Below are positions 33,915-43,739 of a stretch of DNA of 64,000 nt, piece after piece. The stretch is from [Eubacterium] eligens ATCC 27750 (GTDB lineage: Bacteria; Bacillota; Clostridia; Lachnospirales; Lachnospiraceae). A model generated the notes under the pieces. The model did no database searches and was not told the origin of the DNA. It saw only the letters and a program-made list of their open reading frames with translations. The stretch's first letter is position 1; each line of letters begins with the position of its first letter. The stretch spans positions 1,185,001 through 1,249,000 of the forward strand of contig NC_012778.1 of the NCBI RefSeq assembly GCF_000146185.1. Direction: 5' to 3'. The translations under genes were made by a program, and so were the position numbers.

Positions 33915-35021
33915 TCACTCCTCATATGCCTTCTCCCCACCGAGCAGCCTGTCGAGCATATCTGCCACTGGGACCATCGCATTTTTGACCTCTGTACTTG
34001 TATTAGTCTGTGCTCCTGCTTCTATAAGCATCGACCTGCCCTTCATATGCAGACAGTAACGATATGCATTAATATAAATATTCCGTAACAGCCCCGGATA
34101 ATACGCTTCTCCTAAAAGATACATCTGAAGACTCATTGCCAGATTATCATCTCTGTTTGCATTGTAAAGATAGCCTATATCTCCTTTTGCCTTGCTGTAG
34201 CTTATTCCATTAAAAAACATTACCTTCGACATTATTACTCCATTTTCTTCGGTTACAAGTCTTGTAGTATCTGGAACACCATCCCTGTGAAGGTCTATTA
34301 CAACCTCAATTGACGGATTTTCTTTCAGTATTTTTGCCACATTTTCTTCTGCATATGTATAAGCCTTGCTTCTGTCAAGCTTCCCATCAACATAATCATA
34401 CACACTCGTATCATGATAAACATTGTAACCATATGTATTAGTGAGTATATCTGTTAGATAATCTCCAACACCAACTATTGTTGTAGACGTATCTCCCTCA
34501 ACCGTATCCATAAATCCCTCCTGTGAATGTGTATGAAATATAAGAATCTGTGGAGAATCCGCATTTTTCTCCAATGACAGGTCTTTTGCCAGAAATTCCT
34601 CCGGACGCATTATCTGTGTTGTCAGGCTTGTGATAGAGGTAACTGTATAGAACTTCATAAGAAAATCATAATTTTTTAAATCTGCAATATTATAAACATT
34701 TCCAGCTGCATTTTCCTGTAAAGGCCAAGGACAAACTGCAGCACCTGCCTCCACAACCCCCTCTTCCGTCTGTGTAGCAGGTTTTTTATCCTCCTCAGCC
34801 ATACTAAACATATTTTCCGAATCAACCCACACAGAACGGGCATTTTCATCATAATTATCTTCAAAATATGTCTCTACAGGAAACAATGTCTTAACTGCAT
34901 TTTCATAAATTCTGTTCTGAATATAATATATTAAATTAAAACTATAATTCATCATTATTACCATAAGCATTAAGCCCATGAATATAAACATATACACAGG
35001 CCTGTACTTTCTATCACCCAT
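33915..35021 (-). CDS. spoIIP: Stage II sporulation protein P
   Basis: 368 residues. One membrane anchor (about 10-33) is followed by a linker and the SpoIIP amidase/endopeptidase domain. Zinc-site residues are His163, His165 and Glu168 in IFHTHSQEGF, with DLHRDG near 250 and IEAGAQTNTSTE near the C-terminus. With SpoIID and SpoIIM it cuts peptidoglycan so that the mother cell can engulf the forespore. It is 41 bases downstream of gpr, the arrangement known in Bacillus. Confidence 0.95.
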   Translation of the reverse strand: MGDRKYRPVYMFIFMGLMLMVIMMNYSFNLIYYIQNRIYENAVKTLFPVETYFEDNYDENARSVWVDSENMFSMAEEDKKPATQTEEGVVEAGAAVCPWPLQENAAGNVYNIADLKNYDFLMKFYTVTSITSLTTQIMRPEEFLAKDLSLEKNADSPQILIFHTHSQEGFMDTVEGDTSTTIVGVGDYLTDILTNTYGYNVYHDTSVYDYVDGKLDRSKAYTYAEENVAKILKENPSIEVVIDLHRDGVPDTTRLVTEENGVIMSKVMFFNGISYSKAKGDIGYLYNANRDDNLAMSLQMYLLGEAYYPGLLRNIYINAYRYCLHMKGRSMLIEAGAQTNTSTEVKNAMVPVADMLDRLLGGEKAYEE

Positions 35022-35062: not shown

Positions 35063-35878
35063 TCAGCCATGAATATGAACACCAACACGGTTAATTGCTT
35101 TGGATATTATGATACTTATGTTTCTAATGTCTGAATCAATGTCCTTCGGGGTTACATACATTTTTCCTGCCCCCTGAATAATGCCTTCTGCGTCTATAAC
35201 AGTAGGCACGCCAATTGCAAGCACAGGAACACCTATATTGTCTTTTGTTATTCCTATTCTGTGATTTCCAACACCTGAGCCAGGATTAATTCCCTGGTCA
35301 GAAAGCTGTATGGTACTATTTAATCTGTTCACACTTCTTGCAGCAAGAGCATCTATCGCAATGCATACATCCGGCTTTATCTGACTTACAACGCCTTTAA
35401 TAATTCCTGCAGTTTCAATACCTGTCTGTGCCATAACTCCCGGACTAAGTGTGCACACTCCCGTCTCATCGCCCTCACTTATCTTAATACAAATGTTATC
35501 TACAACCTCAGGACCTAATGAATCCGATGTTATATTTCTGTTGCCAAGTCCGATAACAAGAATTTTTTCCGGCTTTACATTTTTATTCATGCGCTTTAAA
35601 AGCTTAAATATATAGCCTGTCAGTGTCGATATAACCTCTTTTGCATATTCTTCGTCTCCGCCTGTAATATCATCAGCCTCTATTGTAAGATAAGTTCCTT
35701 TGGGTCTTCCTATCGCGGCTTCGCCCAAATGATTTGTCACCTGCAATTCTGTGACCTTCACTCCCATTCTTGATTTATTGCTTTCTCTTAATCTTATTCC
35801 TCGCAGCTTTCCTGTTCCATTCATTGCTTCTTCATTTGCCTCTACTGCAAGGTCAGTTCTTACAACTATATTATCCAT
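35063..35878 (-). CDS. gpr: Germination protease Gpr (A25)
   Basis: 271 residues. The N-terminus VRTDLAVEANEE contains the propeptide-cleavage region of this family, and KILVIGLGNRNITSDSLGP and CIAIDALAARSVNRLNSTIQ carry the conserved active-site segments. Gpr degrades small acid-soluble spore proteins when spores germinate. The protein is about 100 residues shorter than Bacillus Gpr, though the core motifs are complete. A candidate forespore-type (sigma-G-like) promoter lies upstream. The divergent neighbour is rpsT, as in Bacillus. Confidence 0.94.
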   Translation of the reverse strand: MDNIVVRTDLAVEANEEAMNGTGKLRGIRLRESNKSRMGVKVTELQVTNHLGEAAIGRPKGTYLTIEADDITGGDEEYAKEVISTLTGYIFKLLKRMNKNVKPEKILVIGLGNRNITSDSLGPEVVDNICIKISEGDETGVCTLSPGVMAQTGIETAGIIKGVVSQIKPDVCIAIDALAARSVNRLNSTIQLSDQGINPGSGVGNHRIGITKDNIGVPVLAIGVPTVIDAEGIIQGAGKMYVTPKDIDSDIRNISIIISKAINRVGVHIHG

Positions 35879-36347: not shown

Positions 36348-36392
36348 AAAGAACCCGGTGCTGACACCCACTCGCACCGGGTTCTTTTTTAT
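36348..36392. terminator. rpsT terminator, also at the holA 3' end
   Basis: AAGAACCCGGTGC (36349-36361) pairs with GCACCGGGTTCTT (36374-36386), followed by T on the plus strand. The convergent holA stop codon (36389-36391) lies in the T-run. Confidence 0.93.
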
Positions 36393-37363
36393 TTGCTGTA
36401 TTTAATTATAATAAGTTCTACTCCCAGCCTGTCATTAAGCCTTCCCTGCTTAACTGCTTCTTCTGTTTTCGCACATTCATTCAATGCATCCAACAGTGTA
36501 TTCATCTCAAAATATTTTGCCTGTGCCTGATATTTACCGACAACAAATGGTGCTGCTCCTATCTTTGATGCAATCTCTTTACCTGAAATACCCCTTGACA
36601 TAAGATCCTTCACCTGTAATATTCCGTTAAACTGTCTTACTATAAGATAAAGTATTCTCATAGGAGGTTCTTTTAATTCCAACAAATCATAATATAAATC
36701 AAGTGCCTGCTGTTGTTTCTTATTCGCAATTGCACTTATCATATCAAATATATGGCTTGTTGTCTGTGTTGCACATACTTTCTCTACATCTTCTGCTGTC
36801 ACAACATTCCTTCCCTGACAATAACTTACAAGCTTCTCTATTTCCTGCCTTATATAATCCATGCCTGCACCTGTCTTATCAAGTATCAAATCACAGGCTT
36901 CCCTGCTTATTTTAAGATTATCCTTAGCAAGAAGCCCTGCTATCCATTTTTCAAGAGTAGCAGTTGTCTGTGGCTTCATCTCGCATACATATCCCACAGA
37001 ATCAACTGCCTTATATACCTTATTACGCTTGTCCACATCTTTTTCTACCATAACAATAACAAGATAATCAGGAATATGTTTAATATAATCTGCAAGCTCG
37101 TCATTAGAACTTTTCAAAAAACCGGTATTTTCCATTATAACAAGTCTCTTCTGGGCAAAAAAAGGCAGCGTTTCACACACATCAATTATATCCTTAACGC
37201 TGGCATTATCCGAATCATAATATGAATAATTCATAGTATCATCACCAGCTATAGCATTCTTTAATCTGTCTCTGTACTGCTTCTTAAGATACTCTTCCTC
37301 TCCATACAGAAGATATACACTCTTAAATTCGCCCTTTTTAATATCATCACTTATGACCTTCAA
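36389..37363 (-). CDS. holA: DNA polymerase III subunit delta
   Basis: 324 residues. The N-terminus (VYLLYGEEEYLKKQYRDRL) and the FAQKRLVIMENTGFLK segment match the HolA family, with three domains: two AAA-like and a C-terminal helical collar containing ELKEPPMRILYLIVRQF. It is the clamp-loader subunit that opens the beta clamp. It lies 95 bases downstream of comEC and convergent to rpsT, the same gene order as Bacillus yqeN-rpsT. No promoter was recognised in the gap, so it may be transcribed with comEC. Confidence 0.95.
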   Translation of the reverse strand: MKVISDDIKKGEFKSVYLLYGEEEYLKKQYRDRLKNAIAGDDTMNYSYYDSDNASVKDIIDVCETLPFFAQKRLVIMENTGFLKSSNDELADYIKHIPDYLVIVMVEKDVDKRNKVYKAVDSVGYVCEMKPQTTATLEKWIAGLLAKDNLKISREACDLILDKTGAGMDYIRQEIEKLVSYCQGRNVVTAEDVEKVCATQTTSHIFDMISAIANKKQQQALDLYYDLLELKEPPMRILYLIVRQFNGILQVKDLMSRGISGKEIASKIGAAPFVVGKYQAQAKYFEMNTLLDALNECAKTEEAVKQGRLNDRLGVELIIIKYSK

Positions 37364-37458: not shown

Positions 37459-39879
37459 CTATTCTTTTTGCTCACCAAACACTTCAATCGCATATGAATC
37501 TTCCCATACCCGCACCATAATCTCTCCTCTGTCATCAGTCCTGTACACCTTCGTACCTGCCTCTTTTAATCTCTGCAAAGTCTCATTATGCGGATGTCCA
37601 TATGAATTATCCACTCCACAGGATATCAGTGCAGTTTCAGGCTTAACAAACCTTAAAAAATTCTCTGAACTTGCACCTCTGCTGCCATGATGCCCAGCTT
37701 TTAATACATTTATGCCAGACAGCTTCTGCAAATCCACCACACTGTCTGACTTTCTGGCATCCTGTATCAGACATTTCTCTGCTTTACTCTCTGCATCTCC
37801 TGTCATAAGCATGGAAAATTTTCCAAATGATATAAGATAGACTGCTGAATAGTCATTAGCTGATTCATAATTGTAGTTCTTACATGGATGTACACAGCTT
37901 ATACTAAGATTACCTGCTGATAAAGCATCTCCCCTGCACGCGTATAAAACATTTATTCCTACTCTGTCAGCCATTTTCCTGATTTCCAATAATGTTTCAT
38001 CCGTATCGTTAATATGCGGCAGAACAATGTTTTTTATTTCAAATGTATTATCACACATATCAATAAGTTCGTATATTCCACTTATGTGATCCTTATCGGG
38101 ATGACTCACAAATACATAATCAAGACTCCGTACCCCGGCATATTTCAGATAAGTATATATCCTGTACCGTCCAATATTCTTCTTGCTTGTACTCCCTCCA
38201 TCAAATAAAGCATTGAAGCCATCACTTGTCTGCAAAACTATTGAATCTCCCTGTCCCACATCAAGCATACTTATCTTCATTGAACAGCCTGTATTATATC
38301 TTAACTGTATAGTAATAATCAAATACAATATTGCAGGCAGTACATTTCTATATTTCCCTGAAATACCGGAAAATACTTTCATATAATAAATCACACACCA
38401 TACAATAAGAAACACATAATACAAAACAACCGCTTTTTCCGGAGGATGACCTGTTACTATAACTGCACCTGATGAACCTGATGCCTTTTCACACAACCAG
38501 CTATATAAGTCAAGAATGTACTCTCCGGCACCTGCAGTCCATATCGCAGCTTTCATTGATATAAGTCCCATAATTCCTGTTAATATCCCACTTACCATAA
38601 TAACTGACATCAACGGTATAACTACTATATTAAGCAAAAGACTTATAATGGCAATCTGTCCTGACATGCTTAAAACAACAGGAAGCGTTGCAATCTGAAC
38701 ACACAAGCCTGTAATCAGCATATCTATGATATTGTGGTATATAAACATTTCTGTAATGGATACCATTTTCTTTTTTCTGAAAAAAAGCATAATTGTTTCT
38801 TCATTAGAAAAAATCGGCTTTACAAATATAATTCCTGCCATAGCAAGAAATGACATTAAAAAACCTGCGTTACTTATACAATAAGGATTTCTGATAATTA
38901 GTATTACAACCGCCAATCCAAGCGTATTAGCACCATCACTTGTTCTGCCAAGCACATCTGCAAGCATAAAAACAAGAATCATAATGACAGCACGCCCGGC
39001 AGACACGCTGTTTCCTGTAATATACAGATAGAAAAGCATTATAACGCTGCTTAACACTGCCGCCTGTATTACGCTTATAATTTTTTTCAGCATCCTGTAT
39101 ACCAGCATACCAACCATCGTTATATGAAGTGCACTGATTGCAAGAATATGTGATATTCCGTTTTTCTTGTATAACTCCTTAATCTCATCATCCAGAACAC
39201 TCCTGTCCCCAAGCACAATCGCCCTCATGGTACCTGCATTCTTTTGTGTAAATGTATTAACATATACATTTTTTATTGAATCAGCTATATTTAACAGGCT
39301 TGCTTTTAAAGTTCCTTCGCATGGTGTTATATTAACAGTTTTATTAAAAATCCCCTGATAATTAATACCATCTGATGTATAATAAGCTCTTGCATTAAAC
39401 TGGCCTTCATTTGTTGGTTCTTCAAAATCCTTTAGTTTTACTCTCACCCAGATATAATCACCAGCATGACAGAATGAATCTTCCGAATATATAATAATTC
39501 CAGATTTTACCGATTCATTAACCTTTTCATCATTATTTTTCCAGTCAGGAATGAGCAATGCATTATTAAGCCTTGTTGCATAACTGTTACCACCTTTTAT
39601 TACAGACACTGCTTCGCCTTTTATATATGCGTAACAGTCCTGCGTCAGCTTTCCCTGATAACGCATCCCCCTGCTGTAATATTCAGTTCTTATTACCATA
39701 ATTGGAAAAATCAAAACAAACAGAATGTAAAACAATGGTGTTTTACTGTATTTATAGAATATAAAATAGCAAGCAATAATTATAACGCCTGCTGACAATA
39801 CAATATATCCAGATGAATATATTGACAAATACGCAGCAGCCAGTCCGATAACTGCTGCAACAAAAAAAGGTCTTTTCAA
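37459..39879 (-). CDS. comEC: DNA internalization channel protein ComEC/Rec2
   Basis: 806 residues. An N-terminal DUF4131-type region and the multi-helix competence domain (about 210-490, containing ISHILAISALHITMVG) form the DNA channel. The C-terminal metallo-beta-lactamase-like domain (from about 530) has MLDVGQGDSIVLQ, FVSHPDKDHISG and LKAGHHGSRGA, the nuclease-like motifs thought to degrade one DNA strand during uptake. The start is a TTG at 39879 with AAAGGAAA upstream. It is the last gene of the run that begins with comEA. Confidence 0.94.
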   Translation of the reverse strand: MKRPFFVAAVIGLAAAYLSIYSSGYIVLSAGVIIIACYFIFYKYSKTPLFYILFVLIFPIMVIRTEYYSRGMRYQGKLTQDCYAYIKGEAVSVIKGGNSYATRLNNALLIPDWKNNDEKVNESVKSGIIIYSEDSFCHAGDYIWVRVKLKDFEEPTNEGQFNARAYYTSDGINYQGIFNKTVNITPCEGTLKASLLNIADSIKNVYVNTFTQKNAGTMRAIVLGDRSVLDDEIKELYKKNGISHILAISALHITMVGMLVYRMLKKIISVIQAAVLSSVIMLFYLYITGNSVSAGRAVIMILVFMLADVLGRTSDGANTLGLAVVILIIRNPYCISNAGFLMSFLAMAGIIFVKPIFSNEETIMLFFRKKKMVSITEMFIYHNIIDMLITGLCVQIATLPVVLSMSGQIAIISLLLNIVVIPLMSVIMVSGILTGIMGLISMKAAIWTAGAGEYILDLYSWLCEKASGSSGAVIVTGHPPEKAVVLYYVFLIVWCVIYYMKVFSGISGKYRNVLPAILYLIITIQLRYNTGCSMKISMLDVGQGDSIVLQTSDGFNALFDGGSTSKKNIGRYRIYTYLKYAGVRSLDYVFVSHPDKDHISGIYELIDMCDNTFEIKNIVLPHINDTDETLLEIRKMADRVGINVLYACRGDALSAGNLSISCVHPCKNYNYESANDYSAVYLISFGKFSMLMTGDAESKAEKCLIQDARKSDSVVDLQKLSGINVLKAGHHGSRGASSENFLRFVKPETALISCGVDNSYGHPHNETLQRLKEAGTKVYRTDDRGEIMVRVWEDSYAIEVFGEQKE

Positions 39880-39912: not shown

Positions 39913-40833
39913 TTATTTTTCAACAATTTCATTATTCATGTAAAAAATACCATCAAGACTTATAACATCACGATACATAAGATTAGAATTACCATTTACA
40001 AGAATCTTTACACCATCAATTCCATCAAGCCCGACAAGTGAATCAACTAAAGAATATAAAGTAACATTACTCTTAGCATTAACCATATCAGATGCAAATT
40101 CAGAACTAAAATTCACATAACATATCCTGTCTATAACTGATATACTTAACAACTTGGTACTTGATGGTACCGACTGATAATATCCTCTCTCCTCCGGTCC
40201 GCTGATAATCTGTTCCACAACTACCTTTTCCAGAGAAACATTTTTGTTGTAACATATTTTTTTCTTAGTCTTTATAAGAGCATCACCTGTTTTATTTGCA
40301 TAATACAGATTAATTGTAACCCACTTCACATCAGCCACAGCACCTTCTGAGGAATCGATAAAATCTTCTGCGCTCATATTACCTATATTGCTTCCGTCCT
40401 CATATACAGCATCCTTACCATCAACATAAAATCTTACATAAGTAACGCCTTCTATCTGACATAATTCTTTTACAACAGCAGCCCTGTACAGAACCTCTGT
40501 TGAAGGCTTCATATCATAATAACTGCTGTCAAAATACACATTAACATATATACTGTCAAATTCAACTGTCGGAGAATTGACATTAACAGGCTTAATAACA
40601 CTACATTCCTTACTACTTTCAGAATTCATGCTATCCAGCAGACGCTGTGCTATAACATACTGGTCATTTTCATCTATAAATATAACATTTTCAAGCAGAG
40701 ATGTTCCCTGATTATTCGCATAATAAACTTTATATGCTGTCCCATGCTGCTTCTGGGTACAGGCAGACACCATAAACATTGGAACCATAATAGCAATCAC
40801 GCATAATATTGCTGATGATATTTTCTTAGGCAT
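39913..40833 (-). CDS. GerMN-domain lipoprotein
   Basis: 306 residues. The signal peptide ends in a lipobox, VSAC (Cys25). Two GerMN-type domains follow: one around residues 45-165 with IYVNVYFDSSYYDM, and one around 170-290 with VTINLYYAN and ICYVNFSSEFASD. GerMN domains occur in spore germination protein GerM and in the actinobacterial kinase partner LpqB. Here the gene is 27 bases downstream of a sensor kinase and 33 bases upstream of comEC, so a kinase accessory role at the outer membrane face is plausible but unproven. Confidence 0.85.
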   Translation of the reverse strand: MPKKISSAILCVIAIMVPMFMVSACTQKQHGTAYKVYYANNQGTSLLENVIFIDENDQYVIAQRLLDSMNSESSKECSVIKPVNVNSPTVEFDSIYVNVYFDSSYYDMKPSTEVLYRAAVVKELCQIEGVTYVRFYVDGKDAVYEDGSNIGNMSAEDFIDSSEGAVADVKWVTINLYYANKTGDALIKTKKKICYNKNVSLEKVVVEQIISGPEERGYYQSVPSSTKLLSISVIDRICYVNFSSEFASDMVNAKSNVTLYSLVDSLVGLDGIDGVKILVNGNSNLMYRDVISLDGIFYMNNEIVEK

Positions 40834-40860
40834 ATTTACAGTTCTCCTTTCCTGACAGCA

Positions 40861-42351
40861 TTATTGTACTTCTACATAATTAAGAGGTACTCTCATTGTA
40901 AATGTAGTTCCTATATTTTCCTCACTATGAACTTTTATTGTTCCATGGTGTAAAAGTATTATATTTCTCACAATAGCAAGTCCCAGTCCTGTTCCACCTG
41001 TTTCTCTTGACCTTGCCTTATCAACCCTGTAGAATCTCTCAAATATCTTATTCTGGCTTTCCTCTGGTATTCCTATTCCTGAATCTTCAACTCTTATATA
41101 GAAATACTGATAATCCGCATTTAAAGATACATGTACCCAGCCATCATCTACATTATATTTTATAGCATTCTCTACAAGATTAGATATAACCTGAGTCATT
41201 TTAACTTCATCTATCTGTGCAACTACTGGTCTGAAGCTCTCAAACAGCAGTTCAATATTCTTCTTCTGGGCTATAGGCTTAAGTCTTTTAAGTGTCATCT
41301 CAAGTAATTCATTCATATTAACTGAGGTAATATTAAGTGTTGCTGTTGTCTTATCCATCCTTACCAGAGTAAGCAGATCTTCAATAATCTTACTCTCTCT
41401 GTCAATTTCAGTGACAATATCCTGCATAAATTCCTGATATACTTCAATCGGAACATTCTCTTGTGTGTTAAGAGACTCCGCAAGGACCTTTATCGAAGTA
41501 ATAGGTGTCTTAAGTTCATGTGACACATTTGAAACAAATTCTGCTCTTGACTGGTCTGTCTCATTAGCCTTGTCCATAATTCCATTAAAATCCTCTGCTA
41601 TCTCACGGATTTCAGTATATCCCTTCAGAGGAATACGCTCATCATTATGGCCTGCATTAACATTAGCCATTATATCTATTATTCTTCTTACCGGTCTGTT
41701 AAGAAAATGTAACAAAACAATTAATGCTATAAGACATATTGTAATAATTATAACCTTAATATTATTATTCTGACTATTCACATTCATAAACAATGAATCA
41801 ATTTCCGTATAATCAAGGTCTGCAACAAGTACTGCAATAAAATCACCTTCATCATTATATACAGGTGTTACAGCCTGTATATCTCCAGACTTATAATCAT
41901 ACACTGTGCTGGTTTTATGACTGACAACAGTATCAAAAACCTTTGAATTAATTATGGTCTTCCCATAATCTGTTGAATAAGTATCTGCATAAACATTATA
42001 ATTCAAATCAACGATTCTTATTCTTATCTGGTTCATTGCTGAATAACTGTTAAGCCTGCTTCCCATGCCAGACAATTCAGCATCATGAAGTCCTGCATAG
42101 CCTGCATACTCAGCCGCAATAAGAATTGCTTCATTCTGTACAACCGCCTTCTGTCGTGTTATTACAGACTCTTTATATATATACTCAAAGCCTTCAAATG
42201 TACCTATAACAGCTGCAGTTATTATAACTGCACTTACAACAAACTGTATTACTGTATATCTTCTTATAAATTTCAGAAAATTATCAAAAATTCTTATCCA
42301 TACGATTTTTCTACGATTAATTTCCTTTTTATTTTTATTTTTATTAAACAT
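40861..42351 (-). CDS. Sensor histidine kinase in the comEA-comEC run
   Basis: 496 residues. TM1 (about 32-54) and TM2 (about 199-216) enclose an extracellular PDC/Cache-like sensor. HAMP follows, then HisKA with His278 in NVSHELKTP, then HATPase ending in GGTGLGLAIVRNI. There is no PAS domain between HAMP and HisKA. Overall it resembles WalK/PhoR-type wall-stress kinases. The ATG overlaps the end of the regulator gene by 8 bases, so translation is coupled. The downstream GerMN lipoprotein may sense with it. Confidence 0.94.
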   Translation of the reverse strand: MFNKNKNKKEINRRKIVWIRIFDNFLKFIRRYTVIQFVVSAVIITAAVIGTFEGFEYIYKESVITRQKAVVQNEAILIAAEYAGYAGLHDAELSGMGSRLNSYSAMNQIRIRIVDLNYNVYADTYSTDYGKTIINSKVFDTVVSHKTSTVYDYKSGDIQAVTPVYNDEGDFIAVLVADLDYTEIDSLFMNVNSQNNNIKVIIITICLIALIVLLHFLNRPVRRIIDIMANVNAGHNDERIPLKGYTEIREIAEDFNGIMDKANETDQSRAEFVSNVSHELKTPITSIKVLAESLNTQENVPIEVYQEFMQDIVTEIDRESKIIEDLLTLVRMDKTTATLNITSVNMNELLEMTLKRLKPIAQKKNIELLFESFRPVVAQIDEVKMTQVISNLVENAIKYNVDDGWVHVSLNADYQYFYIRVEDSGIGIPEESQNKIFERFYRVDKARSRETGGTGLGLAIVRNIILLHHGTIKVHSEENIGTTFTMRVPLNYVEVQ

Positions 42352-43033
42352 TAAAGTAATATCCTACTCCCCACTTTGTATGAACATACTTAGGTTCACT
42401 TGGATTATTCTCAATCTTTTCCCTAAGTCTTCTCATGTGGACATCCACGGTTCTTGCATCTCCTGTATAATCCTGTCCCCATACAGCCTTTAACAGGTTG
42501 TCACGGCTATACACTTTTCCCGGATTAACAGCAAGTATCTCCAGCAAGTCAAATTCTTTTGCAGTAAGATTGATTTCCTTATCTGCAATATATAGACTTC
42601 TGCTGTCACAGTCAATTTTCATATCTCCTGCTTTTATCACATTACTTTTCTGTTCCTTTTGGGTTATTGATGAATTACGCCTTAAAATAGCTTTCATTCT
42701 TGCTTTCACTTCAAGAATATTAAAAGGCTTTGTTATATAATCATCCGCTCCATAATCAAGTCCCAGAATTTTATCCATGTCATCACCTTTTGCTGTCAGC
42801 ATAATGATAGGAACATTAGAAAATTCCCTTATCTGCTGGCATACTGATAATCCATCCAGTTTAGGAAGCATAATATCGAGAAGGATAATGTCATATTTGT
42901 TGTTTCTGACATATTCAAGAGCCTCTTCCCCGTCATATGCACAGTCAACCTCACTGTAATCCTGCATAAGACTGAATTTAAGTCCCTTAACTATCATTTT
43001 CTCATCATCAACAACCAATACTCTGCCTGCCAT
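42344..43033 (-). CDS. OmpR/PhoB-family response regulator in the comEA-comEC run
   Basis: 229 residues. The receiver has the DDE acidic motif, the phospho-acceptor Asp in IILLDIMLPKLDG, and MLTAKG and ITKPF motifs. The winged-helix domain ends with the DVHMRRLREKIE and KWGVGYYF segments, close to WalR/PhoP types. The start at 43033 (MAGRVLVV) has AGGAG nearby; an in-frame GTG at 43060 would overlap comEA and its own ribosome binding site. It is 19 bases downstream of comEA. Confidence 0.94.
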   Translation of the reverse strand: MAGRVLVVDDEKMIVKGLKFSLMQDYSEVDCAYDGEEALEYVRNNKYDIILLDIMLPKLDGLSVCQQIREFSNVPIIMLTAKGDDMDKILGLDYGADDYITKPFNILEVKARMKAILRRNSSITQKEQKSNVIKAGDMKIDCDSRSLYIADKEINLTAKEFDLLEILAVNPGKVYSRDNLLKAVWGQDYTGDARTVDVHMRRLREKIENNPSEPKYVHTKWGVGYYFNV

Positions 43034-43052
43034 ATCCTTCTCCTTTTTCTTT

Positions 43053-43658
43053 TTATACACTTATATAATTCTTAATTTTATTAAATGCGGACTCTTTTAT
43101 CCCGGATACCTTCATTATATCCTCAATCCTGTCAAATCTGCCATTAGTATTCCTGTAATTAATTATGTCTGCCGCTCTTGAACTTCCAATTCCCGGAAGA
43201 GTCATAAGCTCATTCTCCGTTGCCCTGTTAATATTAACCAGTCCTGAGGTTGACACTGTACCATCAGTTTCTGATATATGTTCACTTTCACAGGGTATAT
43301 ATACCCTGTCACCATCAGAAAGAATACCAGCCATATTAAGAGCTGCTGTGTCAGCGCATTCAGCCATACCACCTGCCATCTGTACTGCCTCATACATTCT
43401 TGTTCCTGCAGCACATTTTATAACTCCTGGTTCAAGCACATCTCCACATACATATACATATATATCATTCTCTGCCTGCACTTCATCCGTGCATTCTTCA
43501 TTCTCTGTGTCTGCCTGTGTTATTATAACTGTATTCCCATACTCACGCTTCTTCTGTCCGGCAGAAAAATATACAGTTCCTGTAACCAGCAATACAACTG
43601 CGCACATACAGTATTTAACAGTTTCTTTATGTTTAACAAATATTCTTTTATAATTCAT
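43053..43658 (-). CDS. comEA: Competence protein ComEA (DNA receptor)
   Basis: About 201 residues. One N-terminal membrane anchor (about 18-35), a SLBB domain (about 68-125, DIYVYVCGDVLEPGVIK) and a C-terminal double helix-hairpin-helix (NINRATENELMTLPGIGSSR ... RIEDIMKVSGI) that binds double-stranded DNA at the cell surface. The start at 43658 (MNYKRIFV) has AAGGAG 7 bases upstream. The promoter at 43711-43739 probably drives the whole comEA to comEC run. Confidence 0.95.
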   Translation of the reverse strand: MNYKRIFVKHKETVKYCMCAVVLLVTGTVYFSAGQKKREYGNTVIITQADTENEECTDEVQAENDIYVYVCGDVLEPGVIKCAAGTRMYEAVQMAGGMAECADTAALNMAGILSDGDRVYIPCESEHISETDGTVSTSGLVNINRATENELMTLPGIGSSRAADIINYRNTNGRFDRIEDIMKVSGIKESAFNKIKNYISV

Positions 43659-43710
43659 GTACAATCTCCTTAACTTACAGGTCAAGGAAATTCCCTTTGC
43701 GTACCTTTAT

Positions 43711-43739
43711 ATTTTACAGAATTGTTACAACGAATACAA
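43711..43739 (-). promoter_or_regulatory. Promoter of the comEA run
   Basis: TTGTAT (43734-43739) and TAAAAT (43711-43716) with a 17-base spacer on the minus strand. Confidence 0.65.

Follow-up and report, generated by a model that had tools for sequence, protein, structure and literature searches.

Why should a response regulator, a sensor kinase and a lipoprotein lie between two DNA-uptake genes, and what might they sense? This question is raised by a locus of [Eubacterium] eligens ATCC 27750 (Lachnospiraceae, class Clostridia), found in a stretch of 64,000 nucleotides (NC_012778.1, positions 1,185,001 to 1,249,000; hereafter the window). Here comEA, a regulator, a histidine kinase, a lipoprotein with two GerMN domains and comEC follow one another on the minus strand in one tight run, with gaps of 19, -8, 27 and 33 bases (comEA/regulator, regulator/kinase, kinase/GerMN, GerMN/comEC). 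An initial annotation had described this order and these gaps, and its coordinates were correct, as judged from the positions of the open reading frames, with Pfam and NCBIfam supporting the gene names. The three signalling genes (‘the module’ in short) belong together as a genuine unit that is frequent in the family and occurs across the class, and constitute a WalRK-sister three-component system. We favor, with moderate confidence, the reading that it is a WalRK-like envelope sensor, read together with comEA and comEC mainly by inherited gene order and probably standing in a vacant WalRK place. Its components would, with comparable confidence, be a WalR-sister regulator, a Cache-type kinase that lacks PAS, and a tandem-GerMN lipoprotein of the outer leaflet. 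The observations that carry this reading are the gene content and order, the clade of the regulator, the steady pairing of kinase and GerMN gene, the lack of any WalR match over the cut-off in the family, and a partly shared comEA promoter.

The run begins with comEA (43053..43658), which has SLBB and HHH_3 domains (Pfam) and exceeds the cut-off of the NCBIfam model for the ComEA HHH region; with the full comE model it scored 116.2 bits, under the cut-off of 152.35. The OmpR-type regulator (42344..43033, ATG start) combines REC and Trans_reg_C domains and was assigned to a clade sister to WalR by tree and signature residues. The kinase (40861..42351) consists of a transmembrane stretch, a Cache-like ectodomain, a second transmembrane stretch, and HAMP, HisKA and HATPase domains. 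In the lipoprotein (39913..40833), Germane (PF10646) was matched twice (E 2.8e-34) and no other Pfam domain was found; these are both GerMN matches of the whole genome. Its lipobox cysteine at codon 25 (VSAC; 40759..40761) is conserved without exception in an alignment of 43 sequences that includes that of the window. The last gene, comEC (37459..39879, TTG start), has Competence, DUF4131 and Lactamase_B domains and a ComEC_Rec2 score of 278.9 bits, above the cut-off of 190.05. All of these features lie on the minus strand.

The best NCBIfam match of the window regulator was YycF/WalR (271.6 bits, cut-off 340) rather than MtrA (237.8 bits, cut-off 300), and no other protein of its genome scored higher with the YycF model. 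A phylogeny of 94 regulators, for which the module rows of the family were subsampled (25 of 52), gathered 56 module regulators into one group (99/99), with 30 canonical WalR proteins as its sister group (100/95). The regulator is consequently not inside the WalR clade, and six other regulators of the same genome fell outside both groups. At ten chosen positions, the module regulators carry the residues GQDYLIRYHW and WalR the set IKELRNYFTR. Canonical WalR coexists with the module in 17 of 22 genomes outside the family (exceptions: G228, G229, G230, G264 and G287); 10 of these 17 WalR proteins were placed in the tree, and the remaining 7 were called from scores of 326-336 bits. Because the two regulators coexist in these genomes and form separate clades, the module regulator is, judging by sequence, a paralog of WalR in a separate sister clade.

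The initial annotation had likened the module to the actinobacterial MtrA-MtrB-LpqB system, and common descent from the same three-gene system would make it a clostridial MtrAB-LpqB. Gene types and order agree with those of actinobacteria, the kinase has no PAS domain, and the MtrA model does recognize the regulator at the score given above. That score is under the MtrA cut-off, however, and when a single MtrA and a single RegX3 sequence were put into a smaller tree, module regulators and WalR grouped together, apart from MtrA (98/94), with long branches for the two actinobacterial rows. The kinase likewise scored under the MtrB cut-off. LpqB is composed of GerMN plus a propeller; this architecture was not seen in the window lipoprotein, in which Pfam recognized Germane and no second domain type. 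PMC12338722 considers LpqB a likely periplasmic modulator of MtrB. Common descent with MtrAB-LpqB is hence very improbable: the comparison stood for gene types and order and failed for descent, and the likeness may hold for how the module works.

The most interesting point, which goes beyond the initial annotation, is the missing WalRK of Lachnospiraceae. None of 200 family genomes exceeded the YycF cut-off of 340 bits; the best score was 284.3 bits, and WalR proteins of the class reach 363. This cut-off is strict, as only 23 of 118 class genomes pass it, so the tree and the residues carry the argument for the absence of WalR. The 30 best YycF hits in the family all had the module residues, with one change in three of them, and none had the WalR set. 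Three further family hits lie outside the module (L284-L286; one ranks first in its genome) and are of other regulator types, and so are the top-scoring proteins of five genomes with no module regulator (L287-L291). The WalK model was matched over its full length (444-540 bits) in 6/6 genomes outside the family and in 0/6 family genomes, although its cut-off of 725 was passed by none of these 12. Canonical WalRK was not found in the family sample, in which a diverged WalR scoring below the module was not checked for in every genome. If the module were simply a diverged WalRK ortholog, its best curated match to YycF, its rank as top YycF hit and the residue type of the 30 best family hits would all be expected; coexistence with canonical WalR in 17/22 outside genomes and the separate clades identify paralogs instead and leave this explanation extremely unlikely. 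According to PMC9210968, WalRK is found in all Firmicutes and is a potential antibiotic target. The module probably fills the vacant WalRK place in Lachnospiraceae. A farther-reaching version, in which the family lost WalRK and the GerMN-coupled sister in the comE operon became the chief regulator of wall homeostasis, with wall control and DNA-uptake genes on one transcript, is put forward tentatively, as somewhat short of an even chance.

GerMN was matched in 192 of the 200 family genomes, and 60 family regions were fetched from the listed best GerMN hits on long contigs. L188 and L189, also from the family, and the regions of Eubacterium sp. AF22-9 and of an uncultured Eubacterium brought the number scored to 64. 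The order comEA-regulator-kinase-GerMN-comEC was found in 49/64, which is not a random draw because the regions were picked by their GerMN hit and a kinase without GerMN would escape. A further 12 regions had kinase-GerMN-comEC, the operon being split before the kinase, and three had comEA-regulator-kinase-GerMN, one of which stops at a contig end. Over the family loci, the median gaps were 13.5, 0, 5 and 10 bases. The kinase directly precedes GerMN in all 64 of these GerMN-selected regions, the 12 split ones included; a DegV-like gene (named by sight) precedes the kinase in 9 of those 12. For the split genomes, the place of the regulator was found in 6, not sought in 5, and one guessed place was empty. 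The regulator lies directly behind comEA in 6/6 of those found and in two further genomes (L262 and L263), the GerMN surroundings of which were not fetched. Absence of the module from this position in close relatives, which would have spoken against the initial annotation, was not observed; the arrangement is the commonest among the family regions and no peculiarity of this strain.

A search outside the family returned 39 regions (a filler, L190, excluded), of which two were from the family and 37 were not, with a selection that favors tandem-GerMN hits. Regulator-kinase-GerMN was present in 22/37 non-family regions. ComEA stands before the regulator in 10 of these 22 modules, spanning 7 families as labelled, and comEC was found behind the module in none of the 22. 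As the signalling trio thus occurs without comEC behind it, it is more widely spread than the comEC link and probably older. Genome G251, which belongs to the same taxonomic order, has a kinase together with a regulator sharing 64% identity with that of the window; its GerMN-comEC pair is found elsewhere, and canonical WalRK is present too. In G229 and G230, the best YycF hit of the genome is the module regulator itself. Two GerMN protein genes follow in a row behind the module kinase in these two genomes (L169 and L170), the second encoding ~480 residues.

The outer part of the window kinase gave a dCache_1 match of 24.6 bits, under the cut-off of 45, and Pfam gave no cytoplasmic PAS match. 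The WalK profile covers the kinase only at profile positions 366-593 of 594. For the structural model of the kinase (mean pLDDT 74.2), the fold search ranked the WalK-YycH model 9a5d first (E 1e-27), with a TM-score of only 0.43. For the lipoprotein model (pLDDT 84.8), the top fold match was the tandem GerMN of Bacillus subtilis GerM, 6gzb (E 4.5e-16), with a whole-chain TM-score of only 0.37 and 14% identity. The kinase ectodomain comprises 132-169 residues (median 146) in 62/64 module kinases, its length being unmeasurable in L035 and L044. Eight family genomes lack GerMN, and six of these also lack a module regulator match, three of the six being only 70-76% complete. In one genome without a GerMN match, G061, the order is comEA-regulator-kinase-comEC (L292, 547-5321), and the outer domain of the kinase is gone, leaving ~10 residues between two transmembrane stretches. 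On the basis of this genome, kinase and GerMN lipoprotein look coupled. Another genome without a GerMN match, G129, has comEA-regulator followed by an alpha/beta hydrolase gene and no kinase (L297, 3057-6198); a kinase elsewhere in that genome was not searched for.

The fold match raises the question of whether the lipoprotein is simply GerM, which has a sporulation-specific role in the Q:AH complex, placed beside a kinase by accident. Tandem GerMN domains, 6gzb as top match and genes in the window that by sight resemble gpr and spoIIP are what one would expect of GerM. Yet the gene stands beside a kinase in 64/64 family and 22 outside cases and is kept there through operon splits, and the kinase ectodomain is missing where GerMN is missing (G061). 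GerMN proteins from 14 outside regions without the module scored lower with the family model (60-147 vs 141-297 bits), although the ranges touch. Moreover, a survey (PMC7924749) lists Eubacterium eligens with a non-sporulating Lachnospiraceae group in which it reports GerM to be lacking. We regard an incidental GerM as very unlikely and retain the lipoprotein as a putative partner of the kinase.

A candidate promoter (TTGTA-N18-TAAAAT; 43710..43739, minus strand) precedes comEA, with the same hexamers and spacing in relatives. The strict pattern TTGTA-N18-TA[CA]AAT was found before comEA in 23/61 family upstream regions, three of them being the window and its near relatives L003 and L004; the remaining 38 lacked it. 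Since the pattern was derived from the same family sequences on which it was counted, the other genes of the family loci are the fair control, and it occurred before none of 428; 200 shuffles gave a mean of 0.06 and a maximum of 1. A looser form was present in 24/61 family comEA regions vs 4/428 other genes, and in 0/10 class regions. A generic sigma-70 scan does not list the comEA promoter. In the family, the strict pattern was not found before the regulator (0/50), kinase (0/60), GerMN (0/60) or comEC (0/57), which fits a single transcript. No terminator-like site occurs in any of the four gaps of the window run; on the same strand, one lies within comEA and three within comEC, one beginning 20 bases into the gene. 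The initial annotation had proposed one transcript from a promoter at 43711-43739, and the partly conserved promoter, the order and the gaps agree that comEA through comEC are probably transcribed together. As the promoter is common to 23/61 family regions, co-expression of comEA, module and comEC appears likely. A de novo motif search turned up only coding sequence of the upstream membrane-protein gene.

Co-transcription invites the view that the module is a dedicated competence regulator, in which the regulator activates comEA and comEC after lipoprotein and kinase have sensed incoming DNA or the wall. ComEA directly precedes the regulator in 8/8 fetched regions of genomes that have regulator and GerMN at separate places, kinase-GerMN is still followed by comEC in 12/12 split loci, comEA precedes the regulator in modules from 7 other families (10/22), and a secretion/pilus-type ATPase is encoded in the genome (PF00437, 471 bits). 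Against this, the regulator is the sister of an envelope regulator, and outside the family comEA is missing from 12/22 modules and comEC from behind all 22. Among seven genomes without a module regulator match, comEC is kept in five (G039, G178, G187, G199 and G117) and was not found in G091 (98% complete) and G174 (76%). In G039, which lacks GerMN as well, comEC comes immediately after comEA, the signalling genes being absent from this place (L295, 3546-6290). A dedicated competence regulator is therefore unlikely. The case for direct control of competence by the module is weak because comEC persists in these five genomes, and the direct tie between wall sensing and DNA uptake is looser than the initial annotation had suggested; the comE link reads as mainly inherited gene order. 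At G000:C1:794955-797212, a secretion/pilus-type ATPase was matched twice (471 and 155 bits), and a WalR-type box follows the second match at a distance of 55 bases.

Several observations weigh against a WalRK-like envelope sensor in a vacant WalRK place. Three genomes that are 98-100% complete (G039, G091 and G178) have no match to GerMN or the module regulator, and their best hits are not WalR; neither system is thus needed everywhere. The regulator has H at residue 199 and W at residue 221, where WalR has T and R, so that its targets may differ. The best curated match of the window kinase was PnpS (269.8 bits, cut-off 400), just above WalK (266.8 bits, cut-off 725). G084 keeps the kinase ectodomain without an adjoining GerMN gene and has a weak GerMN match elsewhere, and joint loss of ectodomain and GerMN is a single case (G061). 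Genome-wide, the promoter pattern was matched 9 times at 7 places, counting the comEA promoter, only slightly more often than a reversed control (4 matches). WalR controls wall hydrolases via TGTWAH-N5-TGTWAH, and a perfect match to this direct repeat, TGTAAC-N5-TGTAAA (43713..43729, minus strand), overlaps the comEA promoter. Such a box was present in only 4/61 family regions (window, L003, L069 and L091; shuffle mean 0.1, maximum 1) and was not enriched genome-wide (70 vs 71 for the reversed pattern). Because it is rare in the family and equally frequent when reversed, it was dropped as evidence of regulator targets.

The six other places of the promoter pattern comprise two just before genes and four within open frames. 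One lies ~35 bases 5' of a DUF1653 gene that is followed by a D-Ala-D-Ala ligase gene (L276, 1501-1620; G000:C1:615176-615205); it is a lead toward envelope targets, which the reversed control keeps weak. Another sits between DegV and TetR-like genes.

In the mechanism that we propose, the GerMN lipoprotein would contact the outer domain of the kinase and tune its kinase/phosphatase balance according to the state of the wall, and the phosphorylated regulator would control envelope genes in a WalR-like manner. In Lachnospiraceae the module would have taken the place left by a lost WalRK. The comE genes would share its transcript through old gene order, co-expressed and candidate targets at most. 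If this is true, a large family that ranks among the chief ones of the human gut lives without WalRK and uses a sister system instead, which would show where its wall control lies. It would also give the GerMN lipoprotein a testable signalling partner, and offer a way to test the role of MtrAB-LpqB-like lipoproteins outside actinobacteria.

The gene next after comEC is holA (36389..37363, minus strand; TIGR01128, 302.5 bits). Two minus-strand genes at 33915-35021 and 35063-35878 follow shortly after holA and rpsT; their products resemble, by sight, what we take to be SpoIIP and the GPR spore protease. Upstream of comEA, the window has a divergent YfhO gene. Family loci often carry a small DMT/YdcZ-like membrane protein gene (labelled by sight) 5' of comEA (e.g. 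L058, 4231-4662; L051, 3870-4304), and 34 open frames in the fetched loci contain the tail of that protein. In Eubacterium sp. AF22-9, comEC appears as two frames that overlap (L003, 9950-12201), owing to a frameshift either in the gene itself or in the assembly.

In the literature searched, no description of the module or of WalRK loss in Lachnospiraceae was found; a kinase sensor cluster of unknown type, mostly from Lachnospiraceae, is mentioned in PMC10804942 and could not be mapped to the module. The module shares with WalRK (YycFG) a sister regulator clade and a kinase whose model has WalK as top fold match. It differs in forming a separate clade that coexists with WalR, in window proteins that score under both curated cut-offs, in the signature residues of the regulator, in having GerMN instead of YycH/YycI or WalA, and in being embedded, in the window, among comE genes. 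The system of Clostridioides difficile comes closer in two respects: according to PMC9210968, its WalK also lacks PAS and its operon, walA-walR-walK-truA2, also carries a lipoprotein gene, walA, called unique to C. difficile, with a predicted propeller domain. With B. subtilis GerM, the window lipoprotein shares the tandem GerMN domains and the top fold match; it differs by its place beside a sensor kinase, its 14% identity and its low whole-chain TM-score. With MtrAB-LpqB, the module has in common the regulator-kinase-lipoprotein order and a kinase without PAS, whereas regulator grouping, model scores and a GerMN-only lipoprotein set the two apart. Finally, the Bacillus operon has the order comEA-comEB-comEC; the window likewise has comEA first, comEC later and holA next, but three signalling genes occupy the place of comEB.

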